A DNA stretch of 64,000 nt from assembly GCA_958295495.1 (NCBI GenBank), contig OY282352.1:4968049-5032048 (forward strand). Reading direction: 5' to 3'. Below the pieces are notes generated by a model that saw nothing but the letters and a program-made list of their open reading frames with translations, searched no databases and was not told where the DNA came from. Made by a program: the position numbers and the translations under genes. This DNA is from an uncultured Latescibacterota bacterium. GTDB taxonomy: Bacteria > Latescibacterota > UBA2968 > UBA8231. Every line of letters begins with the position of its first letter. Positions within the stretch are counted from its first letter, which is position 1. Positions 35,921 through 60,772 of this stretch are shown here, one piece after another.

Positions 35921-35938
35921 GCATTGATAAGGAATTCC

Positions 35939-41134: not shown

Positions 41135-43009
41135 TTACAGCCGGGCCAACAGCCGCGCGGCCGTGGCGTGGTTCGGCTCCACCGCCAACAACTGCTGCAA
41201 GGCCTGCCGCGCCGCGGCGCGGTGGCCCAGCCGCTGGTAGGAAAGCGCCATGCTCAAATAGGCTTTGACGTGGCGTGGCTCTAAAGAGAGCGCCGCGGCA
41301 AACGCAGCGACTGCCCGTTCGTTCTCTCCGGCCTTCTGCAAGGCCAACCCCAAGTTGAAGTGGTGCGAGGCATCGGCCCGGTCGAGCGCGACGGCCTTTT
41401 CGTAGGCCGCGAGCGCCGCTGAGAAGTTTCCCATCTGCAAATAGGCCGTGCCGAGGTTGTTGTGCGCCGGGGCGTAGTCGAACTCGTCGAGGGCCTCGCG
41501 GAAGCGTTTTTCCGCCTTGGCGAATTCGCCCCGCTGCAAAAAGACCAAGCCCTGCGCGTTGAGTGCTTCGACGTAGCGCGGCTTGCGGTCTATGGCCTGC
41601 TGGTAGTGGATATGCGCCTTGTCGAGCGCACCCTGCCGCGCGTAGAGTAGGCCGAGGTTCTTATGCGCCTCATAGGCCCCCCCGTCCAGCTCCAGTGCCC
41701 GCCGATACTGGCCAGCAGCCTTTTCCCAATCGCCCTGCCGCGCGTATAAGACGCCGAGGTTGTTGTGGGCACCGGCCAAATCCGGGAACAACTCGACCAT
41801 CTTCTCCCGCGCCTCGGCCTCGTTGGCCGTCCAATAAAACTGGAAAAGCGAGAGCGCCATCACCGGCAGCGCAAAATAGGCCACTTGCCGGCCGGCCTCG
41901 CGCCAGTACGCGGCCAAGCCGCTTGGCAATGCCTGCAAGCCAATGCGGTTGGACCCTTCCGCGGCGTTGATCCCCAGATTGGCTTGGTTTTTGCGGTCGC
42001 GGATTTTCCAGATGAACCCATCGAAGTAGTAGTGCAAAAGCGTCGAGGTGATGACGAAAATCTCGACCATTTTGATCGCCTGCTCGGACTTGAGGAAGCC
42101 CTCCATCATGTTGATGCTGCCGTAGGCGAAGCAGACTAGCACATAGGCGATCAGTATCGGCAAGGTGCGCGTGGTGAAGAAGGTGCGCAGGAGCTTGGTC
42201 GTGCGCTCCTGCCTTTTGACGAGGTTGTTGTTGTAGATCCAGACAATGGCGAAGTACTGGATATCGTGGAAAACGGCAAAGGCTGCGTAGCCGATGACGA
42301 GGTCGTTGATATGTATCCAGCCATAGTAGATGATAAACACGGTCGTCGCCATCACCGCGACCTTGGGCAGGCTTATCTTCTGACCGGTGACCGCCCGCTG
42401 GACGATATTGGCCAAGTAGGCCGCGAGCACGGCCAGCGTACAATAGAACAGCACCTTTTTGAGCAGGAACGTCAATTCGGCCGACGGGAAGGGTACGCCA
42501 ACGCGCTGATTGTGGTCGAGGATGCGGTGGAAGTATTCGGGGCTATAGATGACCACCGTTACAAAGGCGCACAAGGTCAACAGCCAGTCGAGTCGGGAAT
42601 TGAGCTTGGAGAAAATTTTGTTTTTGGCATCGTAAATACGCATGATGCCGTAGTGCTGCATAAAGAGGTGCCAGATCTCCCACACTAGGACCACCAAGAA
42701 AAGCCCGTGCAGGGTGTTGAATTGCGCCAGCGCCGTCACCACGAGCACGACAATTGGCGCGACGATGAACTTCTCCTTGAAGGTGCTGAATAGCTCTGGG
42801 TCGCCGTAGGCGCGCATAAACCCGGGCAGGTGATGCCCGGTGGCAAACAATGCCAGCGCGTAAAAGGCAATGGTCTGCGAGTCGAACACGGCCCGCAGGG
42901 GCAGCATGGTCACCAAGCACAAAAGCGGCGTACCAATAAAAAAGAACAGGTCGCCAAAGGGCGAGATGATCCACTTCTGCTCGCGATACACAGCTCGAGC
43001 GACAGTCAT
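41135..43009 (-). CDS. Multi-pass membrane protein with C-terminal TPR array
   Basis: A 624-residue protein. Residues 1 to about 400 hold roughly eight to ten membrane helices with conserved-looking histidines (TGHHLPGFMRAYGDPE, LFMQHYGIMRIYDAKNK, VFHDIQYFAIVWIYNNN). From about 420 there are five or six TPRs (GAHNNLGVLYARQGDWEKAAGQYRRALELD and so on). I do not know the family; the histidine pattern faintly recalls Brp/Blh-type or desaturase-like membrane enzymes. The ATG at 43009 has GAGG six bases upstream and lies nine bases after the preceding surface-protein gene, so it is probably the last gene of the array. Confidence 0.75.
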   Translation of the reverse strand: MTVARAVYREQKWIISPFGDLFFFIGTPLLCLVTMLPLRAVFDSQTIAFYALALFATGHHLPGFMRAYGDPELFSTFKEKFIVAPIVVLVVTALAQFNTLHGLFLVVLVWEIWHLFMQHYGIMRIYDAKNKIFSKLNSRLDWLLTLCAFVTVVIYSPEYFHRILDHNQRVGVPFPSAELTFLLKKVLFYCTLAVLAAYLANIVQRAVTGQKISLPKVAVMATTVFIIYYGWIHINDLVIGYAAFAVFHDIQYFAIVWIYNNNLVKRQERTTKLLRTFFTTRTLPILIAYVLVCFAYGSINMMEGFLKSEQAIKMVEIFVITSTLLHYYFDGFIWKIRDRKNQANLGINAAEGSNRIGLQALPSGLAAYWREAGRQVAYFALPVMALSLFQFYWTANEAEAREKMVELFPDLAGAHNNLGVLYARQGDWEKAAGQYRRALELDGGAYEAHKNLGLLYARQGALDKAHIHYQQAIDRKPRYVEALNAQGLVFLQRGEFAKAEKRFREALDEFDYAPAHNNLGTAYLQMGNFSAALAAYEKAVALDRADASHHFNLGLALQKAGENERAVAAFAAALSLEPRHVKAYLSMALSYQRLGHRAAARQALQQLLAVEPNHATAARLLARL

Positions 43010-43017
43010 GGCATACC

Positions 43018-45387
43018 TCAATAGGCTACGGCTAGGGTGCGTACTACTTGGCCCTGCCCAGCGTCGGCCCCTGCGTCGATGCGGCACACGTACACGCCGG
43101 GCACCACTCGCGCACCCGACGCATCCAACCCGCCCCAGCTAAACGACTGCAACACGCCCGCACCCGACGAAGCAAGCACCGCCACTTCCCGACCCGCCAA
43201 GTCGAATATGCGCACACTCGGAATCGCATCCACCGCCTTGAACAACGCAAAGTGAATCTGCACGCGGTCGTTGATCCCATCGCCATTGGGCGAAAAAACC
43301 GGCGGCACAACCTGCAAAGCGCCGATCAACCGCTCGCTGCCGGGCAGGTCGGGCAGAAATACCACGTTGGCTTGCCGCTTGGCCGCCTCCACCGACTGCC
43401 ACAGCCCCGGACGCGCTTCTTGCCCCAAGTCGGCGGCAAAAACCGTGGCGTTGTGCAGCACCTTGGTGGTAAATTCCACCGCCAGCGAATCCGTCCGCAC
43501 CGTCTCCGGCAAATCCACCCACAGCAGCGAATCCCCAGCCACGCGCACCGCACTCGCCGCGCGTTCCACGCCGCCAATCCGCAGCCGCACGTCCGCTGCA
43601 TCCACCGCACTCGGCGTGAAAAAGCGCAACCGGTCAAAGCCCGAATCCTCCTCGGCCGCCCTCGTTTGCAGCGCGTAGGTAAACCGCGTCGCCTCGTTGG
43701 GTACGGCATGGCGCGGCGCAATCTGCCCGGTCGCCTGCGCGACCAGTGCGTCCTCAAAATCCAGCGCGAGGGCGTGCAACACCGGCGCGACAGCGGGATC
43801 CTCGGTGGAGAGAATCAGTTCCAATTGAATAAAGCGGCGCGGCGTCTCCGACTTAAACGCCTCGCCGGAAAACTGGTAGAAGTTGCTCCACGCACTCCAA
43901 TCGGCTCCAACGGCGACGGTGGTGTCAATGGGGCCGCGGATGACTTTGGGCAAGCTGTTGTAGCGCGTCTGGGTGACTTCCGCGCCCTTTTTGTCGTAAA
44001 AGGTGTATCGCTCTTGCAGGGTGTTGCCCGTGCGCGAGCGCACCTGCAATCGCGTCGGCTCGGGCGTCGAAGCCTCCCAGCGCAAGCGCTTGATGGCTTT
44101 GGGGCGGTCGTCGCCAGCGAGTTGGCCGAGGTCGATAAAATCCGAGCGCAGCACCACTTGTGCGGGATAGCCCGGCGAGAACAGCATCAACTCCATGGGA
44201 TGGGAAAACCAGCCGCTGTCCTCGTGGCCGTGCCAGAAGATGTAGCGCATCTTGCGCGGCTGAAAAAGATAGCGGATGTGGCGGACCTGCCGTGCGGAGG
44301 CCAACGCCGCGTCAATGGCGATGTCCTCGCGCAGCAGGAAGGCCAGGTCCAAATCTCCGCCCGTAGTGAGCCGCCCGTCTGAGAACAAGATGTTGTAGCC
44401 GCGCCCGTGGTGCAGCCCTTCAAACAAGAAACTCGACGTGCCTTCGCCCCGAGTCTGAAAATATATGAACATCTCGTCAATCCAGAACAGCGCCCCCAAA
44501 TCCACCTGCCACCACAGCCCGCCCTCGCGCCAGCCGCCCTTGGTCCCCCCCGAGGTGAGGATATTGCCGAAGGTGTCCATATTGCCATCGAACATGTTCT
44601 GCGGCTCGCGCGCCAGCAGGCCGTGCTCAAAGCGCCCGCCTCGCTCCAAGGTCCCCAAGCTAACGTTGTCCCCCTCGGCGAGGACCTCGATTTCGGCCAG
44701 AGCTGCATCGCGGCTCTTTTCATCGGCGACGACGCGGATCAGCCGCACCATCTGGAAGTCCTGCTCGGCATTCAAATCAACGCTTCTGTCCGCGTCAATG
44801 ACTCGCGTGGTATCCAGCGCACTGCCCAACAGCGGAATCGCAATGGTAGTCTCGACGTTGGGCTTGGTCGTCTGGAAGATCTTGCGATAGCGGAACACAT
44901 CGTCTTGGGCTTGGATTCGGGCACCCTGAGTGACAAAGACGCTAAACTGCTGCAAGGGACGCACCCCCTCCTCGTCGGGAAACGTCAGCTTAATCTCTCG
45001 CGCCAGCACCGGCCTTCCCAAGTCGATATCGACCGACCAATCAACGAGTTGATCCGCAACATCGGGCTGCCAATAGGTCGTTGGATCGCCATCAATGAGC
45101 TTGGGTGCATCCGCCTCGTTGCTACCGGCACGCCATATCCCCCCAGAGACCTCGCCGCGCTTCTGGGAGGGATGGGTGAAGAGGTGGGCATCGAGGGTGG
45201 CGTTGATCTGCTTGCGAAACTTCTTCAACTTCAGCGAGCCGTCGTCGGCAAACTGGACGATGTCCACTGGCATGTCCCAAGTCGCCCACTCGGCCGGGGA
45301 GTCGAAGCGAATTTCCTCGCCGCGGCTCGGGCCGGGGAGCAACAGGCCCATCAGCAAGCAGTAAACCCCGCGTTTGCTCTGCATCAT
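43018..45387 (-). CDS. Secreted discoidin-like surface protein, FlgD-type C-terminus (paralogue 1)
   Basis: A 789-residue exported protein with signal peptide (VYCLLMGLLLPGPSRG). Two F5/8 type C (discoidin)-like, ligand-binding domains are visible: LIDGDPTTYWQPDVADQLVDWSVDIDLGRPV and, later, MFDGNMDTFGNI with WWQVDLGALFWIDEMFIY. Beta-rich segments follow. The C-terminus is a FlgD/Ig-like domain starting VFSPNGDGINDRVQIHF and ending LAVAY. Such domains bind carbohydrates or are used in surface anchoring or secretion. It is the last of four related genes in a row; its N-terminus and C-terminal half nearly duplicate paralogue 2. Confidence 0.8.
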   Translation of the reverse strand: MMQSKRGVYCLLMGLLLPGPSRGEEIRFDSPAEWATWDMPVDIVQFADDGSLKLKKFRKQINATLDAHLFTHPSQKRGEVSGGIWRAGSNEADAPKLIDGDPTTYWQPDVADQLVDWSVDIDLGRPVLAREIKLTFPDEEGVRPLQQFSVFVTQGARIQAQDDVFRYRKIFQTTKPNVETTIAIPLLGSALDTTRVIDADRSVDLNAEQDFQMVRLIRVVADEKSRDAALAEIEVLAEGDNVSLGTLERGGRFEHGLLAREPQNMFDGNMDTFGNILTSGGTKGGWREGGLWWQVDLGALFWIDEMFIYFQTRGEGTSSFLFEGLHHGRGYNILFSDGRLTTGGDLDLAFLLREDIAIDAALASARQVRHIRYLFQPRKMRYIFWHGHEDSGWFSHPMELMLFSPGYPAQVVLRSDFIDLGQLAGDDRPKAIKRLRWEASTPEPTRLQVRSRTGNTLQERYTFYDKKGAEVTQTRYNSLPKVIRGPIDTTVAVGADWSAWSNFYQFSGEAFKSETPRRFIQLELILSTEDPAVAPVLHALALDFEDALVAQATGQIAPRHAVPNEATRFTYALQTRAAEEDSGFDRLRFFTPSAVDAADVRLRIGGVERAASAVRVAGDSLLWVDLPETVRTDSLAVEFTTKVLHNATVFAADLGQEARPGLWQSVEAAKRQANVVFLPDLPGSERLIGALQVVPPVFSPNGDGINDRVQIHFALFKAVDAIPSVRIFDLAGREVAVLASSGAGVLQSFSWGGLDASGARVVPGVYVCRIDAGADAGQGQVVRTLAVAY
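43052..44201 (-). repeat. Near-identical C-terminal half shared with paralogue 2, copy 1
   Basis: About 1.15 kb matches 46136-47285 in the same orientation with only scattered single-base differences. The match stops sharply near 44202, just upstream of the codons for GWFSHPMELMLF. Recent duplication followed by gene conversion is the likely cause. Confidence 0.9.
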
Positions 45388-45423
45388 ACCGTTTTAACAG
45401 GTTAGCAGGAACGCCTTTATCAC

Positions 45424-45648
45424 CTACATCAATTCTCGAAACTTTTCTTCGTCAATTCCCGTCTGTCGCAGCATTTCATAAAACAGCCACCGGGGAATGT
45501 CGCGGCCATGTTGGTGGCTGATGCGAACGCGCAAGATCGTTCCGTTTGCGAGCACTTTACGCCAAGTCTCGTGTTTTCGAGAGCGAACTTTTTCAAATCC
45601 CAAAACCCGTAACACTTTGCGAAATTGATCAAACCTGTATCCGGCCAT
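45424..45648 (-). CDS. hicA: HicA-like mRNA interferase toxin
   Basis: A 74-residue HicA-type toxin. It has the double-stranded RNA-binding-like fold pattern: FRKVLRVLGFEKVRSRKHETWRKV with the catalytic His (about H26), then ILRVRISHQHGRDIPRWLFYEMLRQTGIDEEKF. HicA cleaves mRNA in the cytoplasm unless held by HicB. It overlaps the upstream antitoxin by 20 bases. The ATG lies within the end of hicB. The order is antitoxin first. Confidence 0.85.
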   Translation of the reverse strand: MAGYRFDQFRKVLRVLGFEKVRSRKHETWRKVLANGTILRVRISHQHGRDIPRWLFYEMLRQTGIDEEKFRELM

Positions 45649-45958
45649 GTTTAATTTCGATTAGCATTCGAATATCCCAAGCATCTTTACACGCTGCAAT
45701 CGCCTCGATGTAAGGCAAGTGATGGTCTCGCTTGGGACAGTTTTGATAGATTTCCAACTCCTCTAGATATTCCTCAGCATAATCCTGCATGGCTTCCAGC
45801 ATATCTTCCAAGGCTTCATTAGGCGTTGCCATTTCGGTCACCAGATCCAACTCAGGACAGAAAGCGCATACCAATCCTTCATCTCGCGCAAGAATCATTG
45901 TCAATCGTTTTTCAGACAATGAAATTTTCGGTGGTAAGTTAGAGGTATCCAACGTCAC
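45629..45958 (-). CDS. hicB: HicB-like antitoxin
   Basis: A 109-residue HicB-type antitoxin. LTMILARDEGLVCAFCPELDLVTEMATPNEALEDMLEAMQDYAEEYLEE has the degenerate RNase H-like HicB core. No obvious helix-turn-helix is seen in the C-terminal tail (YIEAIAACKDAWDIRMLIEIKHG), so autoregulation is uncertain. The GTG start has GGAG seven bases upstream. Its base composition is more A/T-rich than the flanking surface genes, in keeping with insertion. It is coupled to hicA by overlap. Confidence 0.85.
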   Translation of the reverse strand: MTLDTSNLPPKISLSEKRLTMILARDEGLVCAFCPELDLVTEMATPNEALEDMLEAMQDYAEEYLEELEIYQNCPKRDHHLPYIEAIAACKDAWDIRMLIEIKHGRIQV

Positions 45959-46101
45959 TTCAGTTCTCCAATTGATGAGAAGCGGCCTAGGCGGCCTCTC
46001 TTAGGGTGCGCGTGAAACCAGCCTTGTTCGCCGATTTTTCGCTTGATCTTGGGGCGCACCGAGAATTTTCAGAGGCTTCTATCTGCCTCTGACAAGCTCC
46101 T

Positions 46102-48453
46102 TTAGTACACCACTGAAACCACCCGTACCATTTCCCCCTGCCCAGCGTCGGCCCCTGCGTCGATGCGGCACACGTACACGCCGGGCACCACTCGCGCACC
46201 CGACGCATCCAACCCGCCCCAGCTAAACGACTGCAACACGCCCGCACCCGACGAAGCAAGCACCGCCACTTCCCGACCCGCCAAGTCGAATATGCGCACA
46301 CTCGGAATCGCATCCACCGCCTTGAACAACGCAAAGTGAATCTGCACGCGGTCGTTGATCCCATCGCCATTGGGCGAAAAAACCGGCGGCACAACCTGCA
46401 AAGCACCGATCAACCGCTCGCTGCCGGGCAGGTCGGGCAGAAATACCACGTTGGCTTGCCGCTTGGCCGCCTCCACCGACTGCCACAGCCCCGGACGCGC
46501 TTCTTGCCCCAAGTCGGCGGCAAAAACCGTGGCGTTGTGCAGCACCTTGGTGGTAAATTCCACCGCCAGCGAATCCGTCCGCACCGTCTCCGGCAAATCC
46601 ACCCACAGCAGCGAATCCCCGGCCACGCGCACCGCACTCGCCGCGCGTTCCACGCCGCCAATCCGCAGCCGCACATCCGCTGCATCCACCGCGCTCGGCG
46701 TGAAAAAGCGCAGCCGGTCAAAGCCCGAATCATCTTCGGCCGCCCTCGTTTGCAGCGCATAGGTAAACCGCGTCGCCTCGTTGGGTACGGCATGGCGCGG
46801 CGCAATCTGCCCGGTCGCCTGCACGACCAGTGCGTCCTCAAAATCCAGCGCGAGGGCGTGCAGCACCGGCGCGACAGCGGGATCCTCGGTGGAGAGAATC
46901 AGTTCCAATTGAATAAAGCGGCGCGGCGTCTCCGACTTAAACGCCTCGCCGGAAAACTGGTAGAAGTTGCTCCACGCACTCCAATCGGCTCCAACGGCGA
47001 CGGTGGTGTCAATGGGGCCGCGGATGACTTTGGGCAAGCTGTTGTAGCGCGTCTGGGTGACTTCCGCGCCCTTTTTGTCGTAAAAGGTGTATCGCTCTTG
47101 CAGGGTGTTGCCCGTGCGCGAGCGCACCTGCAACCGCGTCGGCTCGGGTGTAGAAGCCTCCCAGCGCAAGCGCTTGATGGCTTTGGGACGGTCGTCGCCA
47201 GCGAGTTGGCCGAGGTCGATAAAATCCGAGCGCAGCACCACTTGCGCGGGATAGCCCGGCGAGAACAGCATCAACTCCATGGGGTGGGAAAACCAGCCCG
47301 TATCGGTCAGCGAATGCCAGAACAGGTAGCGAATTTTGCGCGGAGCAAATACGTAGCGGTGGTGGCGCAAGGCCCACTCCTCGCTGCTGACCGGCCTTGG
47401 CTCGAAGATCAGCGGCGTGTAGTCGATGTCGCCGGCAATGGTGCGCCGGCCATCGGAAAAGAGGATTTGGTAGCCAGTACCGGCCTGTAACCCCTCGAAC
47501 AGGAAACTCGACTGGCCCTCGCCGCGATGCTGCCAGTAGATAAATGCCTCGTCGAGCCAGAACAGCGCACCTAAATCAACAGCCCACCACACCCCGCTCT
47601 CGCGCCAGCCGCCCTTGGTCTGGACGGTGAATATATTGCCGTACGTGTCGGTGATGCCGTCGAACATGTTTTGCGGCTCGCGTGCCAAAAGCCCGTTGTC
47701 GAAGCTCCCTCCGCGCGCCAAGACCCCGAGGCTTATGTTGTCGCCCGCGGCGGTCACCTCCACTTCGGCCAAGGCCGCGTCCGCACTCTTTTCGTCGGCG
47801 CGTACGCGCACAAAACGCACCATGCGGAAGGTGTTCAGCGCGGCCGGCTCCAGCCCGAGGCTCGCGTCGATGACCCGCGTTATGTCGCGCTCGCCGACTA
47901 GCTCAATATCGACGACCTGCTCTTGGTTGGGCTGGGTCGTCTGAAAGGCTTGGCCGAATTTGAAGACATCGTCCGCGGCTTGGATGCGCGCACCATTGGC
48001 CGTAAAGACGCTGAATTGCCGCAAAGGACGCGCCCCCGTGCGGTCGGGAAACACCAAGCGAATGCGCTCGGCTAACACGGGCCGCCCCAAATCAATGGTC
48101 ACCACCCAATCGACCAGATCGTCGGACGGACTAGGCCGCCACACCGTCTCCATATCCCCGTCCATGATGCGCCGGGCCGCCGTCGGATTGGAGCCTACCT
48201 GCCAGATCCCCCCGGAGACCTCGCCGCGCTTCTGGGTGGGCTGGGTGAAGAGGTGGGCATCGAGGGTGGCGTTGATCTGCTTGCGGAACTTCTTCAACTT
48301 CAGCGAGCCGTCGTCGGCAAACTGGACGATGTCCACTGGGATGTCCCAAGTCGCCCACTCGGCCGGGGAGTCGAAGCGAACTTCCTCGCCGCGGCTCGGG
48401 CCGGGGAGCAACAGGCCCACCAGCAAGCAGTAAACCCTGCGTTTGCTCCACAT
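46102..48453 (-). CDS. Secreted discoidin-like surface protein, FlgD-type C-terminus (paralogue 2)
   Basis: A 783-residue exported protein, paralogue of the gene at 43018-45387. The signal peptide (VYCLLVGLLLPGPSRG) and about 80 N-terminal residues are almost the same. The middle (about residues 80-390) is clearly diverged, with discoidin-like segments IMDGDMETVWRPSPSDDLVDW and MFDGITDTYGNI. From GWFSHPMELMLF to near the end the two are nearly identical, including SPNGDGINDRV; only the last residues differ (VRVVSVVY). The ATG at 48453 lies one base after the upstream stop with GAGGTGG ahead of it; a GTG-type start further upstream would overlap paralogue 3. Confidence 0.8.
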   Translation of the reverse strand: MWSKRRVYCLLVGLLLPGPSRGEEVRFDSPAEWATWDIPVDIVQFADDGSLKLKKFRKQINATLDAHLFTQPTQKRGEVSGGIWQVGSNPTAARRIMDGDMETVWRPSPSDDLVDWVVTIDLGRPVLAERIRLVFPDRTGARPLRQFSVFTANGARIQAADDVFKFGQAFQTTQPNQEQVVDIELVGERDITRVIDASLGLEPAALNTFRMVRFVRVRADEKSADAALAEVEVTAAGDNISLGVLARGGSFDNGLLAREPQNMFDGITDTYGNIFTVQTKGGWRESGVWWAVDLGALFWLDEAFIYWQHRGEGQSSFLFEGLQAGTGYQILFSDGRRTIAGDIDYTPLIFEPRPVSSEEWALRHHRYVFAPRKIRYLFWHSLTDTGWFSHPMELMLFSPGYPAQVVLRSDFIDLGQLAGDDRPKAIKRLRWEASTPEPTRLQVRSRTGNTLQERYTFYDKKGAEVTQTRYNSLPKVIRGPIDTTVAVGADWSAWSNFYQFSGEAFKSETPRRFIQLELILSTEDPAVAPVLHALALDFEDALVVQATGQIAPRHAVPNEATRFTYALQTRAAEDDSGFDRLRFFTPSAVDAADVRLRIGGVERAASAVRVAGDSLLWVDLPETVRTDSLAVEFTTKVLHNATVFAADLGQEARPGLWQSVEAAKRQANVVFLPDLPGSERLIGALQVVPPVFSPNGDGINDRVQIHFALFKAVDAIPSVRIFDLAGREVAVLASSGAGVLQSFSWGGLDASGARVVPGVYVCRIDAGADAGQGEMVRVVSVVY
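46136..47285 (-). repeat. Near-identical C-terminal half shared with paralogue 1, copy 2
   Basis: Second copy of the repeat described at 43052-44201, offset by 3,084 bases in the same orientation. Confidence 0.9.
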
Positions 48454-48454
48454 G

Positions 48455-50905
48455 TTAGTAGGCCACCTCAACTACGCGCAACTCAATAGCATCGCCTGAG
48501 TCCGCGTTTACGTCTATGCGCCAGAGATAGATGCCTGGGGGAACGGTCGCGCCAGCTAAACTTTGGCCATCCCATCTAAAGCGGCGGGTCGGCCCCTCTG
48601 CGGCTGGCGTCAATTGGGCCACTGACCGGCCGACCAAGTCGCGCACCTCAACCATGGGCACGGCATCTTGGGCCTTGAGGACGACGAAGCTCAGTTCCAC
48701 AAAGTCGTTGACTCCATCGCCATTGGGCGTGAGCACCCGGCTCGAAAGCTGCAAGTCGCCAATCAAGCGGTCGCTGTCGGCTAACTCGGGCAGGAACACC
48801 ACGTTGGAGCGGCGCGCGGCCGGCTCGACGTCCTGCCACAGACCGGGCGCGTCGCTCAGGCCCAAATCGGCTTCTACGACCGCAGCATTCCTCACCAGCC
48901 GAGTGGTAAAAGCAACCTGCACGGAGTCGCCTTGCACCACCTGCGGCAAGGCGATCAGCAGCGAATCCGCGGCAATGTCCATAGCAGTCGGCACAACGCT
49001 CTGACCGGCGACCCGCACCTCGACCTCAGCGGCCCGCACCAAGTCGGGCACGACCAAGCGCAGGCGGTCAAAGCCCGTGTTTTCTGGGACCACAGACGGC
49101 CACAGCATATAGGTGAAGCGGGTATCCTCGTTGGGCTTGGCTTGGCGCGGCAGAATTGACCCGTGCGCCTCGTTGACCAGCGCATCGACGAACTCCAACT
49201 CGACCGAGCGCACCACCGGGGCTACCTCCGGGTCTTCCGTGCTCATAACCAACTCTAGCTGCACGAACTTGCGCGGCGAGTCCGACTTAAACGGCTCGCC
49301 CGACAGCTTGTACACGTTGCTCCACTCGCTCCAATCCTCCCCGACGACGACCGAAGTATCCACGCGGCCCCGCAGCACCTTGGGCGAGCTTTTCCACTTT
49401 TCCTCGGTGACAACCTCGCCGATCTTGTTGTGAAAGGTGTACACCTCGCCCATCGCATTGCCCGAGCGGGAGCGCAACTCAATCTGGGTATTGGGCGGCA
49501 AGTCAGCGTCGTAGTGGAGGGCCTTAAGTACCTTGGGCTGCCCGTCGCCAGCGAGCGCACTCAGGTCCAAAAAGTTCGATTGGATCGCGACTTCGGCTGG
49601 GTAGCCCGGAGAAAACATCTGTAGCTCCATGGGATGGGCGCGCCAGCCCAAGTCGTGCAGGGCCAGCCAGAAGATGTGCCGCACCTTGCGCGGATTGAAC
49701 AAATAGCGGTAGTGCCGCTTGTATTTCTCGCGTTCATTGGTCCACTCTGGTTCAAAAATCCACGAGTCAAAGTCGATGTCGCCGGTCAGGGTCTGGGTGC
49801 CGTCGGAAGAGAAAAAGGTGTACCCCGTGCCGGCGTTGTTGGTGCCCAAGCGGAAGTCGGCGAGGCGCTCGCCGGCCTTTTGCCAATAGACAAACGCGTC
49901 GTCGATCCAATAGGTCGCCCCCAGATCCACCTGCCACCACAAGCCCCCTTCCAAGGCCGTGCCGCGCGACTCGGTAAACTGCTGATGCACCTCAATGACC
50001 CCGTACGTATTGAGGTTGCCGTCGAGCCAGAAGAAGGGGTCGGTCGCCCGCGATCCATTGATGTACGTGCCGCCCTTTTCCTCGATCCCAAGGCTGATGT
50101 TGTCGCCGACGGCAATGACCTCGATTTCGGCGAGCGCCCCGTCGAGCTGGTGCTCATCCACGAGGAAGCGGATGAACTGGATCATCTGCCACTTGGAGTT
50201 GACGGCCACCCGCGAACCCACTGGGCCGGTCTCCGGTGGCTCGTTGCCGTCCCCGGTGGCAGCGGTGTTGGCCTTGAATCTGAATAAGTCAACGGTAAAA
50301 TCGTCGCGACCGCTGACATCGCTCAGTTGCTCCACGGCGCGGGTGGTATCCTCCACGGCCGGCTTGAACCCCAAGCTGAGATACGCGTCTAAGTTGGGCT
50401 TGGTCGTGCGGTAGATCGGCGCGAAGCGATATACGTCCTCTAAAGCCGCCACGTGGGCACCTGTAGAGGCAAAGACGCTAAACTGGCGGAAGGGTGTAGC
50501 CCCTTCTTCATCGGGAAAGTGGATGCGGATCTCTCGGGCCAATACCGCGCGGCCCAAGTCGATTTGCACGATCCACTTGTCGAGCGGGTCGCCGCCGGCT
50601 GGCTTCCAAAAGGTGGCGGCATCCCCGTCGATGATCAGGGGGGCGTCGTTTGGGTTGCTCAGCGCAGACCAGATGCCGCCGGCCACATCCCCGCGCTCGT
50701 TCGTCGGGTGGACGAAGAGATGGGCGTCGAGCGCGGCGTTGATGTCCTTGCGAAACTTGACCAGCCCCAAGTGCCCCTGGGGGGTGAAGATGTTTAACTG
50801 CGGCTTGAGCGACCAGTTGGCCTCCCAAGCCGCTTGGCTGTCGAAGGTGAGGAACTCGGCGTAAGCCCCACAAGGTAGGAGCAAGGCCAGAGCAAGTATG
50901 TGCAT
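48455..50905 (-). CDS. Secreted discoidin-like surface protein, FlgD-type C-terminus (paralogue 3)
   Basis: An 816-residue exported protein of the same family. The signal peptide is ILALALLLPCGAYA. Discoidin-like parts include IIDGDAATFWKPAGGDPLDKWIVQIDLGRAV and the later WLDGNLNTYGVIEVHQQF with WWQVDLGATYWIDDAFVYW. An extra loop of about 25 residues (NTAATGDGNEPPETG region) is not in paralogues 1 and 2. The C-terminus has VLTPNGDGVNDFVELSF and ends EVAY. It is diverged throughout, with no near-identical blocks. It follows paralogue 4 by about 97 bases of A/T-rich sequence containing a small inverted repeat (50948-50965). Confidence 0.8.
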   Translation of the reverse strand: MHILALALLLPCGAYAEFLTFDSQAAWEANWSLKPQLNIFTPQGHLGLVKFRKDINAALDAHLFVHPTNERGDVAGGIWSALSNPNDAPLIIDGDAATFWKPAGGDPLDKWIVQIDLGRAVLAREIRIHFPDEEGATPFRQFSVFASTGAHVAALEDVYRFAPIYRTTKPNLDAYLSLGFKPAVEDTTRAVEQLSDVSGRDDFTVDLFRFKANTAATGDGNEPPETGPVGSRVAVNSKWQMIQFIRFLVDEHQLDGALAEIEVIAVGDNISLGIEEKGGTYINGSRATDPFFWLDGNLNTYGVIEVHQQFTESRGTALEGGLWWQVDLGATYWIDDAFVYWQKAGERLADFRLGTNNAGTGYTFFSSDGTQTLTGDIDFDSWIFEPEWTNEREKYKRHYRYLFNPRKVRHIFWLALHDLGWRAHPMELQMFSPGYPAEVAIQSNFLDLSALAGDGQPKVLKALHYDADLPPNTQIELRSRSGNAMGEVYTFHNKIGEVVTEEKWKSSPKVLRGRVDTSVVVGEDWSEWSNVYKLSGEPFKSDSPRKFVQLELVMSTEDPEVAPVVRSVELEFVDALVNEAHGSILPRQAKPNEDTRFTYMLWPSVVPENTGFDRLRLVVPDLVRAAEVEVRVAGQSVVPTAMDIAADSLLIALPQVVQGDSVQVAFTTRLVRNAAVVEADLGLSDAPGLWQDVEPAARRSNVVFLPELADSDRLIGDLQLSSRVLTPNGDGVNDFVELSFVVLKAQDAVPMVEVRDLVGRSVAQLTPAAEGPTRRFRWDGQSLAGATVPPGIYLWRIDVNADSGDAIELRVVEVAY

Positions 50906-53048: not shown

Positions 53049-53112
53049 GGTTCTCACTCCCGCTTAGTGTAGAAATAGTAAAAAAGTACCAAAGGCGTTG
53101 CCGTTTTCTCCA

Positions 53113-54852
53113 TCAGGGATTGGCCAGCGCGTACTGGGCGAGCGCATCGCCGTTAATGCCCCATGCAGGGTGCCACTTGGCGCGCAACTGAAGGTTGAGG
53201 GCGCGCAATTCGCGCTGCTGCTTTGCTTGGCGGGCTAAGTAGTGGGCCTTCTGTTGGCTCAAGTCGTATTCTTGCACTCGCTTGGGCCGGTGCTGCAAAA
53301 CCTTGAAGATCGAAAAGGCCCTTGCCAAGGGCTGGGGGTCGCGCAGGGAAGACGGCACGGGGCTGACCAGTTCAATCGGACCTTGCAATTCCCTTTCGGG
53401 CGCGGTTACGGCCGCGTCCATCAGCTCCTTGTAAACGATCTTTTCAAATGCGCGCAGCGCGTAGAGGCCGCCGTTTTCGTCCGCGTCGCGCCGGATGCTG
53501 TGCTTGGTCGCCAGTGCGCCCATGTCGGCCCCATTGCGAATTTGCTCCAGCAACCTTTGGGCGAGCGACTCGTCGGCAACCATGATCTCTTGGATGACGA
53601 TTTCTTCCGGTGCCCAGTACATCTCGGGATGCGCCTCGTAGTGGGCGCGCGCTTCTTCTTCGCTCACGGCTAGGGTGCCCTCAAGTACCTCTTCCCACAG
53701 CCCTTGGAGGAGCAGCCGCTCCCTTTCGGCTTGCACCTTCTCCTGCACCTCGGGCTGCTTGGCGTATCCACCGCGCTCGGCGGCCAAACCCAAAAGCAGG
53801 TCTGGTGCCCCGCGGCGGCGCACGCGATCGTCGAGCAAGGCACTGTCGATTCGGGCGCGACCCAGCCGCGTATTGTGCAGCAGATAACTGCCCTGCTGCA
53901 TGGTGATGACGCCGCCGGCGTACTCGTAGAGCGGGGCGTCCCACTCCTCGGGCGCAAGCTGCGGGGTGCCAGGCTGTTGGTTCCAAGCCGCGACAAAGCG
54001 CCGCACCTGCTCCCCCACCGGGCGCAAGCCGCTTTCAGCGACCAGCTTGTCGATGTGCTCGCTGCGCAAGTTCTCGATTTTTTCGAGAAAGGTTGCCCGC
54101 TGGATCACCGAGCGATACTGCTCAAAAGGCACCAATTTCTTATCGACCACCTTGGCAATCTCCCAGCCTTGCGGCGTGCGGAAGGGTGGGCTGACCTCGC
54201 CTGTATCCAACGAAAACACGCGCTCGTACACTCGGTCTGAGACCCGATCGAAGGCATAGTACGAGGCAAACCAGCCCCCAGCGGCCGCGGTTGCCGCGTC
54301 CAGCGAATGCTTGCGCGCCATGTCCTCAAAGGTCGTCCGGCCAGCCTCGATTTCCGCGTAGATGGAATCGGCGCGGGCGCGGCTGTCGAGCAGGATGTGC
54401 GCCCCGCGCACGGCGTGGCGGGCCGGATGCGCGGCAAAATTGGCCCGCAGCTCGTCTTCGGAAATCTCGATCTGTAGGCCGACCTGTTCGCGTATATAGG
54501 CTTCGACCATGGCCTTGTGCCGGGCGAGCTTCACGGCCTTGATCCATTCGGGATTTTTGTCCAGTCCCCGCGCGTACGCCTCGCGCACCATGAGCTTGAT
54601 GTCGATCAAAGTCAGCAGGTGCTCGCGGTGCTTTTCCACGCCTTGGGCTAGCGAGAGGTGCTGCGATTGGATCCGGGCTTCGTACCGACGAAATTCGCGC
54701 TCGTCAATTGGATCGTCGCCGACTTGGGCCAAGGCAGTACCCGTCACCACCAAGCCGCCCCCCTCTGCGACCGGGGCCGCCGGCTCTTGGGTGCAACACA
54801 AAAGAAACGCACCGGCTATAAGCCCGGCCCATTTTCTCGCATTATTGGTCAT
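53113..54852 (-). CDS. PpiC/SurA-type peptidyl-prolyl isomerase lipoprotein
   Basis: A 579-residue lipoprotein (lipobox LLCC in GAFLLCCTQEP). After a SurA-like helical N-terminal region (DEREFRRYEARIQSQHLS), residues about 145-245 form a parvulin domain: RGAHILLDSRARADSIYAEIEAG, FEDMARKHSLD, GGWFASYYAFDRVSD and VSPPFRTPQGWEIAKVVDK. A second, less regular parvulin-like unit follows (IVIQEIMVADESLAQRLLEQI, LATKHSIRRDADENGGLYA). Such proteins fold exported proteins in the periplasm. It overlaps the upstream TPR gene by eleven bases and directly precedes the four surface-protein genes, so these are probable clients. Confidence 0.85.
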   Translation of the reverse strand: MTNNARKWAGLIAGAFLLCCTQEPAAPVAEGGGLVVTGTALAQVGDDPIDEREFRRYEARIQSQHLSLAQGVEKHREHLLTLIDIKLMVREAYARGLDKNPEWIKAVKLARHKAMVEAYIREQVGLQIEISEDELRANFAAHPARHAVRGAHILLDSRARADSIYAEIEAGRTTFEDMARKHSLDAATAAAGGWFASYYAFDRVSDRVYERVFSLDTGEVSPPFRTPQGWEIAKVVDKKLVPFEQYRSVIQRATFLEKIENLRSEHIDKLVAESGLRPVGEQVRRFVAAWNQQPGTPQLAPEEWDAPLYEYAGGVITMQQGSYLLHNTRLGRARIDSALLDDRVRRRGAPDLLLGLAAERGGYAKQPEVQEKVQAERERLLLQGLWEEVLEGTLAVSEEEARAHYEAHPEMYWAPEEIVIQEIMVADESLAQRLLEQIRNGADMGALATKHSIRRDADENGGLYALRAFEKIVYKELMDAAVTAPERELQGPIELVSPVPSSLRDPQPLARAFSIFKVLQHRPKRVQEYDLSQQKAHYLARQAKQQRELRALNLQLRAKWHPAWGINGDALAQYALANP

Positions 54853-56233
54853 CTTTTTGCTTTCTAATCAAGGCCGCGGCCATGCGTTTGTGTTCTTCGC
54901 TTTTGGCGATCTGCCCCAGCCGCTTGTAGGCCGCGGCCAAGGCTTGGTGGGCACCGAGCCAGTTTTCGTCGAGTGCGAGGGCGCGGTTGAGCATGGCGAT
55001 GGCCTCATCCGTGCGCTGTTGGTTCAAGTAGGCTTGCCCGAGCGCGGCAAAAGCAGCTACGTGCTCGGGCTGTTGCTGGATAATCTGCTGATAGGCCGCG
55101 GCTGCTTGATCAAAATGGCCAGTGCGCAAGTAGATGTTGCCCATGTTGTTCAGCGCCCGCACGTGCCCGGGATTGATCCGCACAGCTTGGGCGTAGTGCG
55201 GTAGGGCCACGCCGGTAAATCCCAAGCGATTGTATATAAACCCCAAGCTGTAATGGGCTTCGGCGTCGTCTAAGTCGCTCCGCAGCCGCTCGCGGTAGCA
55301 CTGGATATCCCCCTCGACCTGCTTGATTTTTTCGTAGGCAGCAAGGGATTTTTCTCCGGCTGCCTCGCGGCCCTGCCGCAGGTGGATTTGACCGAGCAGC
55401 CGGAAGGACTCGGCAAGCCCGGGTTCGATTAGGATGGCCCGGCGGAAGCGGTCGGCTGCAGCCGTCAGGTCGTTTTGGCGCAGCTGGATCCGCCCCAGTT
55501 GCAGATGCGCCTCCGCGTAGGTAGTGTCGGCCGCCAGCGTGCGCTCAAAGTACTCGGTCGCCCCGTCGTCGTCGCCCTCTTGCAGCCGGATCTCCCCCAT
55601 CGCGTAGAGCGCACGCGCGTTCTGCGGTGCTGCCACCAAGACCTGTTGCAGGACCTCGCTGGCGTCTGCATAGCGGCCCAAGCCGGCGTACACCAGCCCG
55701 AGGTTGAAGCGGGTGTGGAGGTGCTCGGGCCGCAGCACCAAGGCGCGCTCGTATTCGTGGGCCGCGTCGCCTAACCGCCCTTGCTTGCTGTACACCGCCG
55801 CCTTGTTGCGCCGCGCTGGCGCGTAGGTCGAGTCCAAGGCCAAGGCCGCGGCAAACGTAGCGTGGGCTTCGTCGTAGCGGTTCAGCTTCAGATGCACATT
55901 GCCCAAGGCCACCAGCCATTCGGGTTGGCCGGATTCGAGGGCCACGGCCATTTCGTAGAATTGGGTCGCCTCTTCGGGCTGGCCCAAGGCCAAGTGGATC
56001 CGGCCCAGCGTGGCCAGCACCTCGCCCGACTGGGGATGGCGCTTCCGCGCTTTTCCGTACACCGCCAGCGCGTCCGCGTAGCGCTTCTGCCGCAACAAGG
56101 CGCGCCCGATCAGCAGCGGATCCTCCACCGGGGGCGGCTGCACAGCGGGGCGGGCCGGCGGAGCTTCCGGCTCAGTGCCGCAACCCAATGCCAGCACCGC
56201 GCCCAGCGCGCATGACACCCATTTAATCACCAA
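54842..56233 (-). CDS. TPR lipoprotein
   Basis: A 463-residue lipoprotein (lipobox LALGC, about residue 18). A short Pro-rich linker precedes about ten TPRs, such as GEVLATLGRIHLALGQPEEATQFYEMAVAL and AEAHLQLGRIQLRQNDLTAAADRFRRAIL. TPRs form protein-binding superhelices, here probably facing the periplasm. It overlaps the upstream UnbV gene by eleven bases and the downstream foldase gene by eleven bases. The role is likely to be a scaffold for assembly of the surface proteins, by context only. Confidence 0.85.
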   Translation of the reverse strand: MVIKWVSCALGAVLALGCGTEPEAPPARPAVQPPPVEDPLLIGRALLRQKRYADALAVYGKARKRHPQSGEVLATLGRIHLALGQPEEATQFYEMAVALESGQPEWLVALGNVHLKLNRYDEAHATFAAALALDSTYAPARRNKAAVYSKQGRLGDAAHEYERALVLRPEHLHTRFNLGLVYAGLGRYADASEVLQQVLVAAPQNARALYAMGEIRLQEGDDDGATEYFERTLAADTTYAEAHLQLGRIQLRQNDLTAAADRFRRAILIEPGLAESFRLLGQIHLRQGREAAGEKSLAAYEKIKQVEGDIQCYRERLRSDLDDAEAHYSLGFIYNRLGFTGVALPHYAQAVRINPGHVRALNNMGNIYLRTGHFDQAAAAYQQIIQQQPEHVAAFAALGQAYLNQQRTDEAIAMLNRALALDENWLGAHQALAAAYKRLGQIAKSEEHKRMAAALIRKQKDDQ

Positions 56234-57851
56234 CTAGCACCTCCTCTAGGTCCACGTATTGCCGCCTGGGCAGGTCCTCTAGGACTTGGACGACACCGGA
56301 CGGCCAGCGAATCTCAACCCGCTCGACGCCCTCGGCGTCCCCGAGGCCAAAAAGTACGCGGGGGTCGTTCGACGACAGATAGCTCGCATTGCGGCGCACC
56401 TCGCGCACGAGGGTGCGGCCATCGGCCGTCAGTGCGATCTGCGCCCCAATGGCGTCGCGGTTGCTCGCCGCACCCCGCAACCTAAGCCCCAACCACCCGC
56501 CGGCCGCTGCGTCGTTGCGCAACAAGGCCGGCTGGTCATTGGAGTTGTTCACCGCAATATCCAAGTCGCCATCGCTGTCGAGGTCGCCGAATGCAGCCCC
56601 GCGACTGACCTGTACCAGCGCGAGGCCCGGGCCGCCGGCCCCGCGCTCTACAAAAGTACCTGCACCGACGTTTTCGAGGAGCTGATTGCGCTGCGCGTAC
56701 TCAGCCGCCCGATCGACCTTTTCCACGTTGTCGTACACGTGGCCGTTGGCCACGAACAGGTCGAGGTCGCCGTCGAGGTCGCCGTCGAAAAACCCCGTGC
56801 CAAACCCTAAAAAGGCCATGCTGGCGCGCGTGATTCCCGACGCCACGGTCGCGTCGGCAAAAAAACCCCCGCCCAAATTGCTGTACAGGGTGTTGCTCTC
56901 CCACTGGAAGTTGGTCACGAACAAATCCAAGTCTCCGTCGCCATCTGCATCGGCCATATCAACGCCCATCCCGGCCTCGACGCCCCCCGCGCCGTTGAGG
57001 CTGGTGCCGCTGGCCAGCCCCCGATCGACAAAGTGCGCGCCGTCGTTGCGGTAGAGCAGGTTGGGCACGAGGTCGTTGGCCAAGTACAGGTCGGGATCGC
57101 CGTCTTGGTCGTAGTCGCCAAAGACGACCCCCAACTCCTTGCCGGCCGTGCTGGCGAGGCCGTACTCAGCGGTGCGGTCGGCAAAGGCGCGGCCCTCGTT
57201 GATATAGAGGCGATCGACTTGGCCGTCGAACTTGCGCGGGTCGCAGTAGAGCCGCTCCTCGCTGTTGCCGATCCGACACACGAGCGGGTCTTTGGTCGGA
57301 TAGTCGAGGTAGTTGCCGACGAATAGGTCCAAATCCCCGTCGAGATCCACGTCGGCAAAGGCCGCGCTCGTCCCCCACCCCGGGCAGCCGACGCCGGTTG
57401 GGGCCGTGACGTCGGCAAAGCGGCCTTGGCCGCGATTGTGGAAGAGCGCGTTGGCCCCAAAATTGGTGACGTAGAGGTCGGCCCAGCCATCGTTGTCGTA
57501 GTCGCCGACAGCCGCGCCCATGCCGTAGCCGCCATCGCCGACGCCCGCCCGCGCCGTTTGCTCTGAGAAGCGGCCCGTACCGTCGTTGCGAAAAAGCGCG
57601 TTGGCCGCTGCGGGTGCGTTCGATAGCTGCGGCAGCCGCCCGGAGTTGACCAAGTAGAGGTCGAGCGCGCCATCGCCGTCGAAATCCAAAAACGCAACGC
57701 CAGAGCCGTAGGTCTCGGGCAAATAGCGCGCGCCGAGTGCGCCATTGCGGTGGACGAAATCGACCCCAGCAGATTGCGCGATATCGACAAAGCGCGATTC
57801 CGCCGCCGCACTGCAATACAGCATCAGGACCATCCCGTAGTGCGCCTTCAC
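56223..57851 (-). CDS. FG-GAP/UnbV (CRTAC1-like) secreted protein
   Basis: A 542-residue exported protein with a short signal peptide (VLMLYCSAAAES). FVDIAQSAGVDFVHRNG and ETYGSGVAFLDFDGDGALDLYLVN open a beta-propeller with repeated DxDxDG calcium loops (DYDNDGWADLY, DVDLDGDLDLF, DYDQDGDPDLY, DLDSDGDLDIAVNN). The C-terminus is ASPIC/UnbV (WLGLRLRGAASNRDAIGAQIAL, then IRWPSGVVQVLEDL). It overlaps the upstream relative by four bases (ATGA). Confidence 0.88.
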   Translation of the reverse strand: MKAHYGMVLMLYCSAAAESRFVDIAQSAGVDFVHRNGALGARYLPETYGSGVAFLDFDGDGALDLYLVNSGRLPQLSNAPAAANALFRNDGTGRFSEQTARAGVGDGGYGMGAAVGDYDNDGWADLYVTNFGANALFHNRGQGRFADVTAPTGVGCPGWGTSAAFADVDLDGDLDLFVGNYLDYPTKDPLVCRIGNSEERLYCDPRKFDGQVDRLYINEGRAFADRTAEYGLASTAGKELGVVFGDYDQDGDPDLYLANDLVPNLLYRNDGAHFVDRGLASGTSLNGAGGVEAGMGVDMADADGDGDLDLFVTNFQWESNTLYSNLGGGFFADATVASGITRASMAFLGFGTGFFDGDLDGDLDLFVANGHVYDNVEKVDRAAEYAQRNQLLENVGAGTFVERGAGGPGLALVQVSRGAAFGDLDSDGDLDIAVNNSNDQPALLRNDAAAGGWLGLRLRGAASNRDAIGAQIALTADGRTLVREVRRNASYLSSNDPRVLFGLGDAEGVERVEIRWPSGVVQVLEDLPRRQYVDLEEVLVGD

Positions 57852-59527
57852 GGCCTTGGCCCGAACCCCTCGGCGACAAGGCCGGCGCCGCGCCGGATGG
57901 TGATCAGCCGGTTGCCCGCCACCTTGTCGATGCGCTCTTCCATCCCATCGGGCCAGCGCACCACGAGGTAGTCGGCCGCGGTCGCTTCTCCCAAGCCAAA
58001 GTGCAGCCGCAAATCGTCCTGCGACAAGTAGCCCGTGCCCGCACGCACCTCCCGCATCTGTACCACGCCGCCCACGGCGACCGCGACCCGCGCACCAATG
58101 GCGTCTGTATTGCCCCCGCCGTGGAGCAACCTCACCATCAGATAGTTGTGGCGATTGCCCCCGTCGTTGCGCAGCAAGGTCGGCGTGTCGTCGATATTGA
58201 CTACCGCAATGTCCAAGTCGCCGTCGTTGTCCAAATCCCCAAAGGCCACACCGCGACTCGACTTTTCCACCGCTAGGCCCGGGCCGGTAGCCGCCCCGAT
58301 CTCGACAAATGCGCCATCGCGATTTTCAAACAGGTGGTTGCGTTGGGCGTAGCGGGTCCCCAAGTCGCGGTGGTCAACGGCCGGGTACACGTGGCCGTTG
58401 GCCACGAACAGGTCGTCGTCGCCATCGTTGTCGCAATCGAAAAAGCCCGTGCCCCACCCCAAAGAGCTAATGCTCGCCCGGCCTAGGGCCGAGCTAAAGC
58501 TAGCGTCGGTGAAAAATCCCCGGCCATTGTTCTCGTAGAGCGCGTTGTTGTCGTGCGAGAAATTGGTGACAAAGAGGTCGAAATCGCCGTCGCGATCGTA
58601 GTCGCCGGCGGCCAAGCCCATGCCGCCCTGTTCGCGGCCGTCCTCGCTGTACGCAGTTGCCGATAGGAGCGCTACGTCAACAAACGCGCCGCGATCGTTG
58701 CGGTAGAGCACATTCGGCGTCGAATCATTGGCAATGTAGATATCCAAGTCGCCGTCCCCATCCCAGTCGCCAGCCAGCGCGGCAAAACCATAGTACTCGT
58801 AGTCGGCAATGCCAAAGGCCGCGCTGGCCTCGGCAAAGGTCCAACCCGCGCCAGGGCCATCGTTGCGATAAAACCGATCCCGCTCGCCCGGCATCCCGCG
58901 TGGGCCGCAGAACACGTCCAGCCCGCGCCAAGTGCAATAGCTCGGATCGACCGGGCGAAACGCCGGGTCAAAGTCGATGTAGTTGGCCAAGTAAAAGTCC
59001 AAGTCGCCGTCGAGGTCGTAGTCGCCAAAGGCCACAGACGAGCTCCAGCCACTAAAGTCCACGCCCCGCTCGGCCGCCACCTCGACAAACGTGCCGTCGC
59101 CCTCGTTTTCGTATAGGGCATTGGGGCCGTAGTTGGCCAAGTACAGGTCGGGCCACCCGTCGGCATTGTAGTCGGCCGCCGCCGCCCCCATGCCCCAGCC
59201 GGCGTGCGCGACGCCAGCCTCGCGGCCAACACCTGTAAAATGCCAAGCGCCGTCGTTGCGGTACAGCTCGGCGCGGGGTTCGCGGCCCGGGGCGTACCCG
59301 GCGAGGCGCGCGCCGTTGACGATAAAAATATCCACATCCCCGTCTAAGTCATAGTCGAAAAGGGCCGTCCCACCCGTGTTGCATTCGACGATGTGCTCTT
59401 TTTGCGGCGTCCCGGACACCGTGCGCAAGCCAACGCCCACTTCGTCGGCCACATCGACGAAAAGGGGCCGAGCCTCCTCGCTCCCGCATCCTACCAACGC
59501 CCCAATCACGGCTAGTACAAACCACAT
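57848..59527 (-). CDS. FG-GAP/UnbV (CRTAC1-like) lipoprotein
   Basis: A 559-residue lipoprotein (lipobox LVGC). FVDVADEVGVGLRTVSG and NTGGTALFDYDLDGDVDIFIVNG begin a propeller with at least six calcium loops (DYNADGWPDLYLANYG, DYDLDGDLDFYLANY, DWDGDGDLDIYIAND, DYDRDGDFDLFVTN, DNDGDDDLFVANG). The UnbV domain ends it (YLMVRLLHGGGNTDAIGARVAVAVGG, then VRWPDGMEERIDKV). It is a paralogue of the next gene. The ATG at 59527 directly abuts the upstream TPR stop. Confidence 0.88.
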   Translation of the reverse strand: MWFVLAVIGALVGCGSEEARPLFVDVADEVGVGLRTVSGTPQKEHIVECNTGGTALFDYDLDGDVDIFIVNGARLAGYAPGREPRAELYRNDGAWHFTGVGREAGVAHAGWGMGAAAADYNADGWPDLYLANYGPNALYENEGDGTFVEVAAERGVDFSGWSSSVAFGDYDLDGDLDFYLANYIDFDPAFRPVDPSYCTWRGLDVFCGPRGMPGERDRFYRNDGPGAGWTFAEASAAFGIADYEYYGFAALAGDWDGDGDLDIYIANDSTPNVLYRNDRGAFVDVALLSATAYSEDGREQGGMGLAAGDYDRDGDFDLFVTNFSHDNNALYENNGRGFFTDASFSSALGRASISSLGWGTGFFDCDNDGDDDLFVANGHVYPAVDHRDLGTRYAQRNHLFENRDGAFVEIGAATGPGLAVEKSSRGVAFGDLDNDGDLDIAVVNIDDTPTLLRNDGGNRHNYLMVRLLHGGGNTDAIGARVAVAVGGVVQMREVRAGTGYLSQDDLRLHFGLGEATAADYLVVRWPDGMEERIDKVAGNRLITIRRGAGLVAEGFGPRP

Positions 59528-60772
59528 TTACTGTTGAGCCCTCAAGGCCGCGGCCGCGGCGCGGGCCGCACGGCCCTCTGCCATGCGCCCCTGCTGGATC
59601 AGGGCGATGCCCAAGCCATCGAGGGCCGAGGCCATGCCCTGGTCGAGGGCCAAGGCGCGGCGAAACGCGGCGGCCGCCTCCGCGTACTCGCCGAGGGCCA
59701 AGCTGTTGTTGCCTATATTCTCAAAGGCCAAGGCGTAGTCAGGCTTGTGGCGCACCGCCCGCAGCAAAAAGGGCCGGGCGCGCTCGTGTTGCTCTTGTAG
59801 CGAATAGATCACCCCGATGTTGTGGCTGGCCTCCGCGTACGTGGAATCGAGGGCTAAAGCCGCCTCAAACTGCTCTAGCGCAGCCGCCAATTCCTTTCGG
59901 CGCAAATAAACTAGTCCCAAGTTGAAATGCGTGGCCACCCGCTCGTCGGCCGCTAGCGGCACGGCCTGGCGATAGAGCAAGCGGCGGTAGTGATCCTCGT
60001 CCATCGTCGCGCTACTCAACTGCTGGAAAAGCTCAATCATCCGCGCCCCCTCGGCCACGCGGCCTGTGCGCGCATAGAGCGTACCCAAGCTGTAATAGGC
60101 CGGAGTGTAACCCGGATCTGCGGCAATGGTCTGCTCCATGGCCGCCATGGCCCGCTCATCGTCCTGCAAGCGCAAGTACACCAGCGCCAAGTAGTAGTGG
60201 GCGTGGGCCAAGCCGGGGTTGAGTTCAAGCGCCTTGCGCAGCGCGGTCTTGGCGTTTTCATTGTCGCCGCGCGAACACAGCACAAAGCCCAACACGAAGT
60301 GCCCATAGCCGCTCTGCCCGGCCAGTTGCAGCCCCTTTTCGGCTGTTGCAAGTGCCTTGGCGTACCCATCGCCGCGCTCGTTGTACAGCAGTGCCAAGGC
60401 CCAGTACACCTCGGCAAAGGCCGGTGCTTTTTCGCCGGCGCGCTTAAAGGAAGCTATGGCTTCGCTCTTGCGGTGCTCTTTGGCGAGAGCAACCCCGAGG
60501 TAGTAGTGGGCATCCGCGTGGTTGGGCGCAACCGCGACCAACTCGGACAGCACGGCCGCGGCGCTGCGCGTGCGGTCCTTTTGCAAGTAGAGCCACCCCA
60601 AGGCCAAGAGCACCTCCGGGTCTGCCGGGTTTTGCTCGTAGGCACGCTCGTAGAACGCGAGGGGATGGGGCGCAGCAGGTTTTTTGAGGACGTGGCGTTC
60701 CGGGGAACCGCAGCCGATCCCTCCGAGGAGGCCGACCAGTCCTATCCATATCACGGCAAGGCGCATGTCCAT
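59528..60772 (-). CDS. TPR lipoprotein, first gene of the array
   Basis: A 414-residue lipoprotein (MDMRLAVIWIGLVGLLGGIGC). About nine TPRs follow, for example PEVLLALGWLYLQKDRTRSAAAVLSELVAV and AHAHYYLALVYLRLQDDERAMAAMEQTIAA. The frame is open to 60916, but the ATG at 60772 (or 60766) gives the correct signal sequence and follows the terminator hairpin. It resembles the second TPR lipoprotein of the array and is probably a periplasmic scaffold. Confidence 0.85.
   Translation of the reverse strand: MDMRLAVIWIGLVGLLGGIGCGSPERHVLKKPAAPHPLAFYERAYEQNPADPEVLLALGWLYLQKDRTRSAAAVLSELVAVAPNHADAHYYLGVALAKEHRKSEAIASFKRAGEKAPAFAEVYWALALLYNERGDGYAKALATAEKGLQLAGQSGYGHFVLGFVLCSRGDNENAKTALRKALELNPGLAHAHYYLALVYLRLQDDERAMAAMEQTIAADPGYTPAYYSLGTLYARTGRVAEGARMIELFQQLSSATMDEDHYRRLLYRQAVPLAADERVATHFNLGLVYLRRKELAAALEQFEAALALDSTYAEASHNIGVIYSLQEQHERARPFLLRAVRHKPDYALAFENIGNNSLALGEYAEAAAAFRRALALDQGMASALDGLGIALIQQGRMAEGRAARAAAAALRAQQ

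Follow-up and report, generated by a model that had tools for sequence, protein, structure and literature searches.

The window analyzed here is a 64,000-nucleotide stretch of DNA (G000:C1:4968049-5032048) from the 5.97-Mb, single-contig genome of an uncultured Latescibacterota bacterium. The host bacterium is probably sponge associated, and the isolate names of some relatives suggest sponge or coral hosts. From position 60772 down to position 41135, the window carries an array of ~20 kb in which all genes, as read from the open reading frames (ORFs), lie on the minus strand. The array begins with a TPR lipoprotein (TPR1, 59528-60772; lipobox GIGC), an FG-GAP/UnbV_ASPIC lipoprotein (UnbV1, 57848-59527; lipobox LVGC), a second FG-GAP/UnbV_ASPIC protein recognized by Pfam (UnbV2, 56223-57851), and another TPR lipoprotein (TPR2, 54842-56233; lipobox ALGC). 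Then comes a PpiC-type peptidyl-prolyl isomerase with two rotamase stretches (53113-54852), a probable lipoprotein with ~30 paralogous loci in the genome. Downstream are four large proteins that we refer to as clients: client a, CHU1 (51003-53057; CHU_C/FlgD_ig-type tail ending VGIAY), and three copies of client b, namely, CHU2 (48455-50905; CBM32/F5-8C-type domains and a tail ending VEVAY), CHU3 (46102-48471; a discoidin-type domain and a tail ending VSVVY), and CHU4 (43018-45387; C-terminal half nearly identical to that of CHU3). The last gene of the array encodes a multi-pass membrane protein with C-terminal TPRs (41135-43087) and is found in orthologous loci that reach that end.

ORF reading and Pfam matches (TPRs, FG-GAP with UnbV_ASPIC in two proteins, PPIC rotamase, F5/8C-type domains, and CHU_C/FlgD_ig tails) bear out the ORFs, strand, and gene order of the original prediction. 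Its spacings also hold: 0 bases from TPR1 to UnbV1, −4 between UnbV1 and UnbV2, −11 between UnbV2 and TPR2, and −11 between TPR2 and PpiC. It had described the clients as four discoidin/FlgD-domain proteins; all four carry the tail, but discoidin-type domains occur in three, and the protein at 51003-53057 has the tail alone. The designation of PpiC as a lipoprotein fits the orthologues, which have a lipobox, but in this genome the start of the protein has no canonical one. The placement of the start of the unit at 60772 was wrong, because two genes precede it on the same strand: one for an 876-amino-acid outer membrane beta-barrel of a new family with a signal peptide (60852-63482) and one for a fifth client, CHU0, whose C-terminal end (63562-63999) has a CHU_C-type tail ending VGVAY and whose gene runs past the window. 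Outside the window, the next two genes of the series encode a 270-amino-acid protein and a 308-amino-acid CBM9-like protein (24.3 bits) at locus L061, where sugar-ABC-permease-like sequences, read by eye, lie divergently upstream.

A 109-amino-acid PHD_like antitoxin-type ORF (45629-45958, minus strand) lies between CHU3 and CHU4; it is missing at the corresponding place in the relatives examined and is probably not part of the system. The C-terminal halves of CHU3 and CHU4 are 96% identical in DNA sequence (longest identical run, 270 bases), compared with 72% for the N-terminal halves, and each C-terminal half matches its own orthologue at only ~85% identity. This pattern of identities, which recurs in weaker form in relatives, is one of concerted evolution. 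Convergent with the array, on the plus strand at 33944-41121, are genes for two glucose/sorbosone-dehydrogenase-like proteins with FlgD_ig-type tails and one TPR/FG-GAP/UnbV protein. These neighbors are kept beside the array in relatives, where the tails of the dehydrogenase-like proteins end in LLK and belong to the basic class described below.

The array order is conserved. The sequence barrel-TPR1-UnbV1-UnbV2-TPR2-PpiC-client a-client b-(client b)-membrane TPR was found in all genus members read (L070-L078 and L096-L098) and, less complete, outside the genus in L079 and in L093-L095, which represent another two genera of the family, giving three genera in all; client b copy number differs among these relatives. 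Such retention within the genus and in two genera beyond it makes the order more than a chance arrangement. In more distant families, a core of clients and barrel remains, often with the membrane TPR protein (L099-L102 and L104).

AlphaFold2 predicts the 876-amino-acid protein to be a large outer membrane beta-barrel (pLDDT 70, pTM 0.67) with an inserted beta domain at approximately residues 260-390 and a conserved Asp/Asn-rich loop at approximately residues 500-600; its N-terminal stretch is highly conserved and poorly modeled. Family members span ~880 to 980 amino acids, and the genome encodes 41 of them, 34 close and 7 divergent. Some divergent barrels form a separate subfamily in tandem triplets with few clients (G000:C1:3633514-3651464 and 5530259-5543273; L114 and L113). 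Searches of 30 homologues detected no Pfam family in any of them, including the TonB plug, receptor, and SusC families, and Pfam likewise found no POTRA or usher domain in the barrel. The barrel matched no NCBIfam model, among them the PorP/SprF family model TIGR03519; a genome-wide search with TIGR03519 also gave no match, with its positive control likewise silent. A plasmid search located no copy on plasmids. Assignment to a family in the PDB was rejected, as there was no sequence match and Foldseek on the model returned generic outer membrane proteins alone at low TM-scores, with ushers appearing as a generic barrel at a TM-score of ~0.2. The barrel showed no sequence relation to PorV or PorU. 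It was also rejected as a relative of SprA (hhalign probability, ≤2%; E = 0.025 over a single stretch of 90 residues when the two were compared one to one). Barrel residues 139-235 and residues 198-299 in the N-terminal part of SprA have a weak profile similarity (E = 0.025, one-to-one), which might hint at a distant common origin.

As predicted, the clients share one C-terminal class, of the CHU_C/FlgD_ig type. The four clients of the array score 24 to 26 bits against CHU_C, under the cut-off of 27, and CHU0 scores 40.1 bits; the tails score under the cut-off of 35 for TIGR04131. Genome-wide, we count ~150 CHU_C-like domains, of which ~85 exceed the CHU_C cut-off, together with 35 PpiC-type matches in ~30 loci and 51 UnbV matches. 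In Foldseek searches, the best matches of the clients include galactose- and GalNAc-binding CBM32s, and this modeled likeness to CBM32/discoidin domains suggests a role in adhesion or glycan capture.

The array is one of ~26 related barrel-containing cassettes in this genome. A CHU_C match lies within 10 kb of 40 of the 41 barrels (shifted controls, mean 10.6 and maximum 26; 0 of 5,000 as high), and a PpiC match lies within the same distance of 26 of the 41 (shifted controls, mean 4.1; 0 of 5,000 as high). We read the 26 barrel-containing clusters gene by gene. All 26 encode a tail protein, 25 encode client a, 22 encode client b, and 21 encode PpiC, so that the proposed foldase does travel with its clients throughout the genome. 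Other components are the CBM9-like protein (14 clusters), UnbV proteins (11), TPR lipoproteins (10), a mannosyltransferase-like TPR protein (9), and a DUF6785 protein (9). Given this composition, the core consists of the barrel, the clients, and usually PpiC, whereas UnbV and TPR genes are optional. The TPR lipoproteins and UnbV proteins that stood out in the original prediction are thus not the core (10/26 and 11/26 clusters), and UnbV genes, which also cluster only weakly with barrels, were rejected as core parts. Over 20 cassettes, the farther two barrels have diverged, the greater the distance between their tails (r = 0.74) and between their PpiC proteins (r = 0.67), with a Mantel P of 1e-4. 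Duplication of whole cassettes, without physical contact between the proteins, could be behind part of these correlations.

The array had been proposed to serve an export and display system that matches no named secretion system, and a search for type IX genes elsewhere in the genome does not support this. The genome encodes a PorU sortase (NF033707; 629 bits versus a cut-off of 420) and a single detected SprA/Sov translocon (TIGR04189; 617 bits versus a cut-off of 200). Adjoining PorU is a PorV/PorQ-family protein (238 bits versus a cut-off of 90) that falls under the cut-off of the stricter PorV equivalog model (158 versus 250). For the client tail itself, the match is to CHU_C, the type IX signal domain in Pfam. 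GldM (TIGR03517), the sole motor or ring component searched, gave no match, and its control was silent too. Of ten genomes examined for SprA_N and C25 peptidases, every one has both, and two of the ten belong to a family that lacks the barrel.

Handling of the tails by a standard type IX system with no link to these genes had been named as grounds against the original prediction, and only half of this applies: such a system is there, but the -V(A/V)Y tails are strongly linked to a dedicated barrel family that the prediction had missed. Reading the C termini of the CHU_C matches gave 96 tails ending in -V(A/V)Y or similar, 48 that are basic or of other types (with ends such as KxLLK and KTTKLP), and 6 that were unreadable. 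Within 10 kb of a barrel lie 70 of the 96 -V(A/V)Y tails versus 5 of the 48 basic tails (Fisher P = 4e-13), and within 30 kb the counts are 84/96 versus 18/48; the other 12 members of the -V(A/V)Y class have no barrel within 30 kb. When 64 genomes of the phylum are compared, the barrel is distributed in the same way as strong CHU_C tails. The barrel occurs in 39 of these genomes, a presence that follows families (six with and four without, one incomplete genome apart) and hence does not amount to 64 independent events. The best CHU_C E value is at most 4e-7 in all 39 barrel-positive genomes and at least 1.6e-6 in all 25 barrel-negative genomes. Type A tails are found in 64/64.

These observations can be compared with known systems. 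In Bacteroidota, type B clients emerge from SprA in complex with cognate PorP/SprF carriers, whose genes are often adjacent and which afterwards anchor them (PMC12618676, PMC9143113). The extended translocon of the type IX secretion system (T9SS) comprises SprA, PorV, SkpA, SprE (a TPR lipoprotein), and a peptidyl-prolyl isomerase (PMC10994853). By analogy with both, we lean modestly toward a model in which the T9SS serves as the exit for the clients, which are then picked up and anchored by a barrel belonging to their cassette; PpiC and TPR lipoproteins would assist. Clients with glycan-binding-type domains and a CHU_C-like -V(A/V)Y tail would cross the inner membrane via Sec, as their signal peptides indicate. 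In the periplasm, the PpiC of the cassette, plus TPR lipoproteins where present, may keep them competent for export, in parallel with the isomerase and SprE of the T9SS. They would then cross the outer membrane through the single SprA translocon detected. Finally, the cassette barrel would take the -V(A/V)Y tail and hold the client on the surface, as PorP/SprF does for type B clients; genetic linkage and the co-divergence of barrel and tail would be in keeping with such binding. Multiplication of the cassettes within one Latescibacterota family may have given rise to many sets of adhesins or glycan receptors. The cassettes may thus amount to a purpose-built carrier system added to an established secretion apparatus. 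Weighing against a carrier role are the size of the barrel, 876 amino acids versus 292 positions in the PorP family model, and the lack of sequence relation to PorV, PorU, or SprA. We put at even chances the broader proposition that this undescribed family of large barrels, with ~40 genes per genome, and the -V(A/V)Y tails constitute a dedicated, client-specific export and anchoring pathway, one that replaces PorP/SprF at the T9SS exit or, in its strongest form, exports without SprA.

Type B systems with PorP/SprF, as in Flavobacterium johnsoniae and Porphyromonas gingivalis, resemble the cassettes in having CHU_C-type tails on adhesin-like clients, a barrel gene beside the clients, several cognate sets per genome, and an SprA translocon in the genome. 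The cassettes differ in that the barrel is ~880 to 980 amino acids long without a PorP/SprF family match and has ~40 genes per genome, the tails end in -V(A/V)Y, each barrel has several clients, and PpiC and sometimes TPR lipoproteins are cassette encoded. Like the T9SS extended translocon, the array has an isomerase and TPR lipoproteins on its parts list, and their role here may be analogous. In contrast to that translocon, the isomerase and TPR genes are cassette specific and multicopy, and the likeness of the window's TPR proteins to SprE/PorW is one of protein type.

Many copies per genome of an outer membrane barrel with surface glycan-binding-type proteins also bring to mind the SusCD loci of Bacteroidota, and the barrel might be a nutrient channel for glycan capture and uptake, with the discoidin/CBM32 clients as surface receptors that supply it and are merely sorted to the surface through their tails by an ordinary T9SS. 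CBM32/F5-8C-type domains in the clients, the CBM9-like protein recurring in 14/26 clusters, the sugar-ABC-permease-like sequences upstream, and a barrel gene number like that of glycan-foraging bacteria all fit such a function. The cassettes, however, lack a TonB plug and any match to the SusC or SusD families, and their clients have T9SS-like tails and are not SusD-type lipoproteins. No carbohydrate-active enzymes were identified inside the cassettes, the flanks of which have no systematic annotation. With several clients per barrel and a tail class that itself tracks the barrel, we consider this explanation rather unlikely.

Less probable still is T9SS-independent two-partner export, in which the cassette barrel would itself be the translocon of the -V(A/V)Y clients and PpiC their dedicated periplasmic chaperone. 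As in chaperone-usher and two-partner secretion, the barrel, a chaperone-like protein, and the clients are encoded together; the tight linkage and co-divergence of barrel and clients agree with this idea, as does the distribution of barrel and strong tails, which does not follow that of the T9SS core. But the cassettes have no recognizable usher, POTRA, or pilin domains, their tails fall instead in the CHU_C type IX class, and SprA is present. Least of all do we expect the cassettes to be mere duplicated surface-protein operons, in which the neighboring genes have no export role, are co-inherited for one function such as adhesion, and leave export to a plain T9SS with PorV. The optional UnbV and TPR genes and the weak clustering of UnbV with barrels fit such operons, yet the basic-tailed T9SS-type clients of this same genome are unlinked to barrels, and genomes without the barrel lack strong CHU_C tails even though they keep type A tails and SprA.

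Most work on type IX secretion concerns Bacteroidota. In our literature search, no paper combined Latescibacteria with type IX secretion, and published Latescibacteria and PAUC34f genome papers make no mention of such a system in the terms searched. Type IX tails were noted earlier in sponge-associated Poribacteria, with the export route not known (PMC3909097). If the carrier model is true, a barrel family that partitions tail classes within one genome would allow carrier specificity to be tested beyond Bacteroidota. It would also account for the surface display of dozens of sets of glycan-binding-type proteins by a lineage that is uncultured and probably symbiotic. Beside several of the clusters (L048, L053, L059, L068, L117, and L119) lies a repeated ORF ending AFRHLLDADE or similar, which probably represents a mobile or multicopy family.
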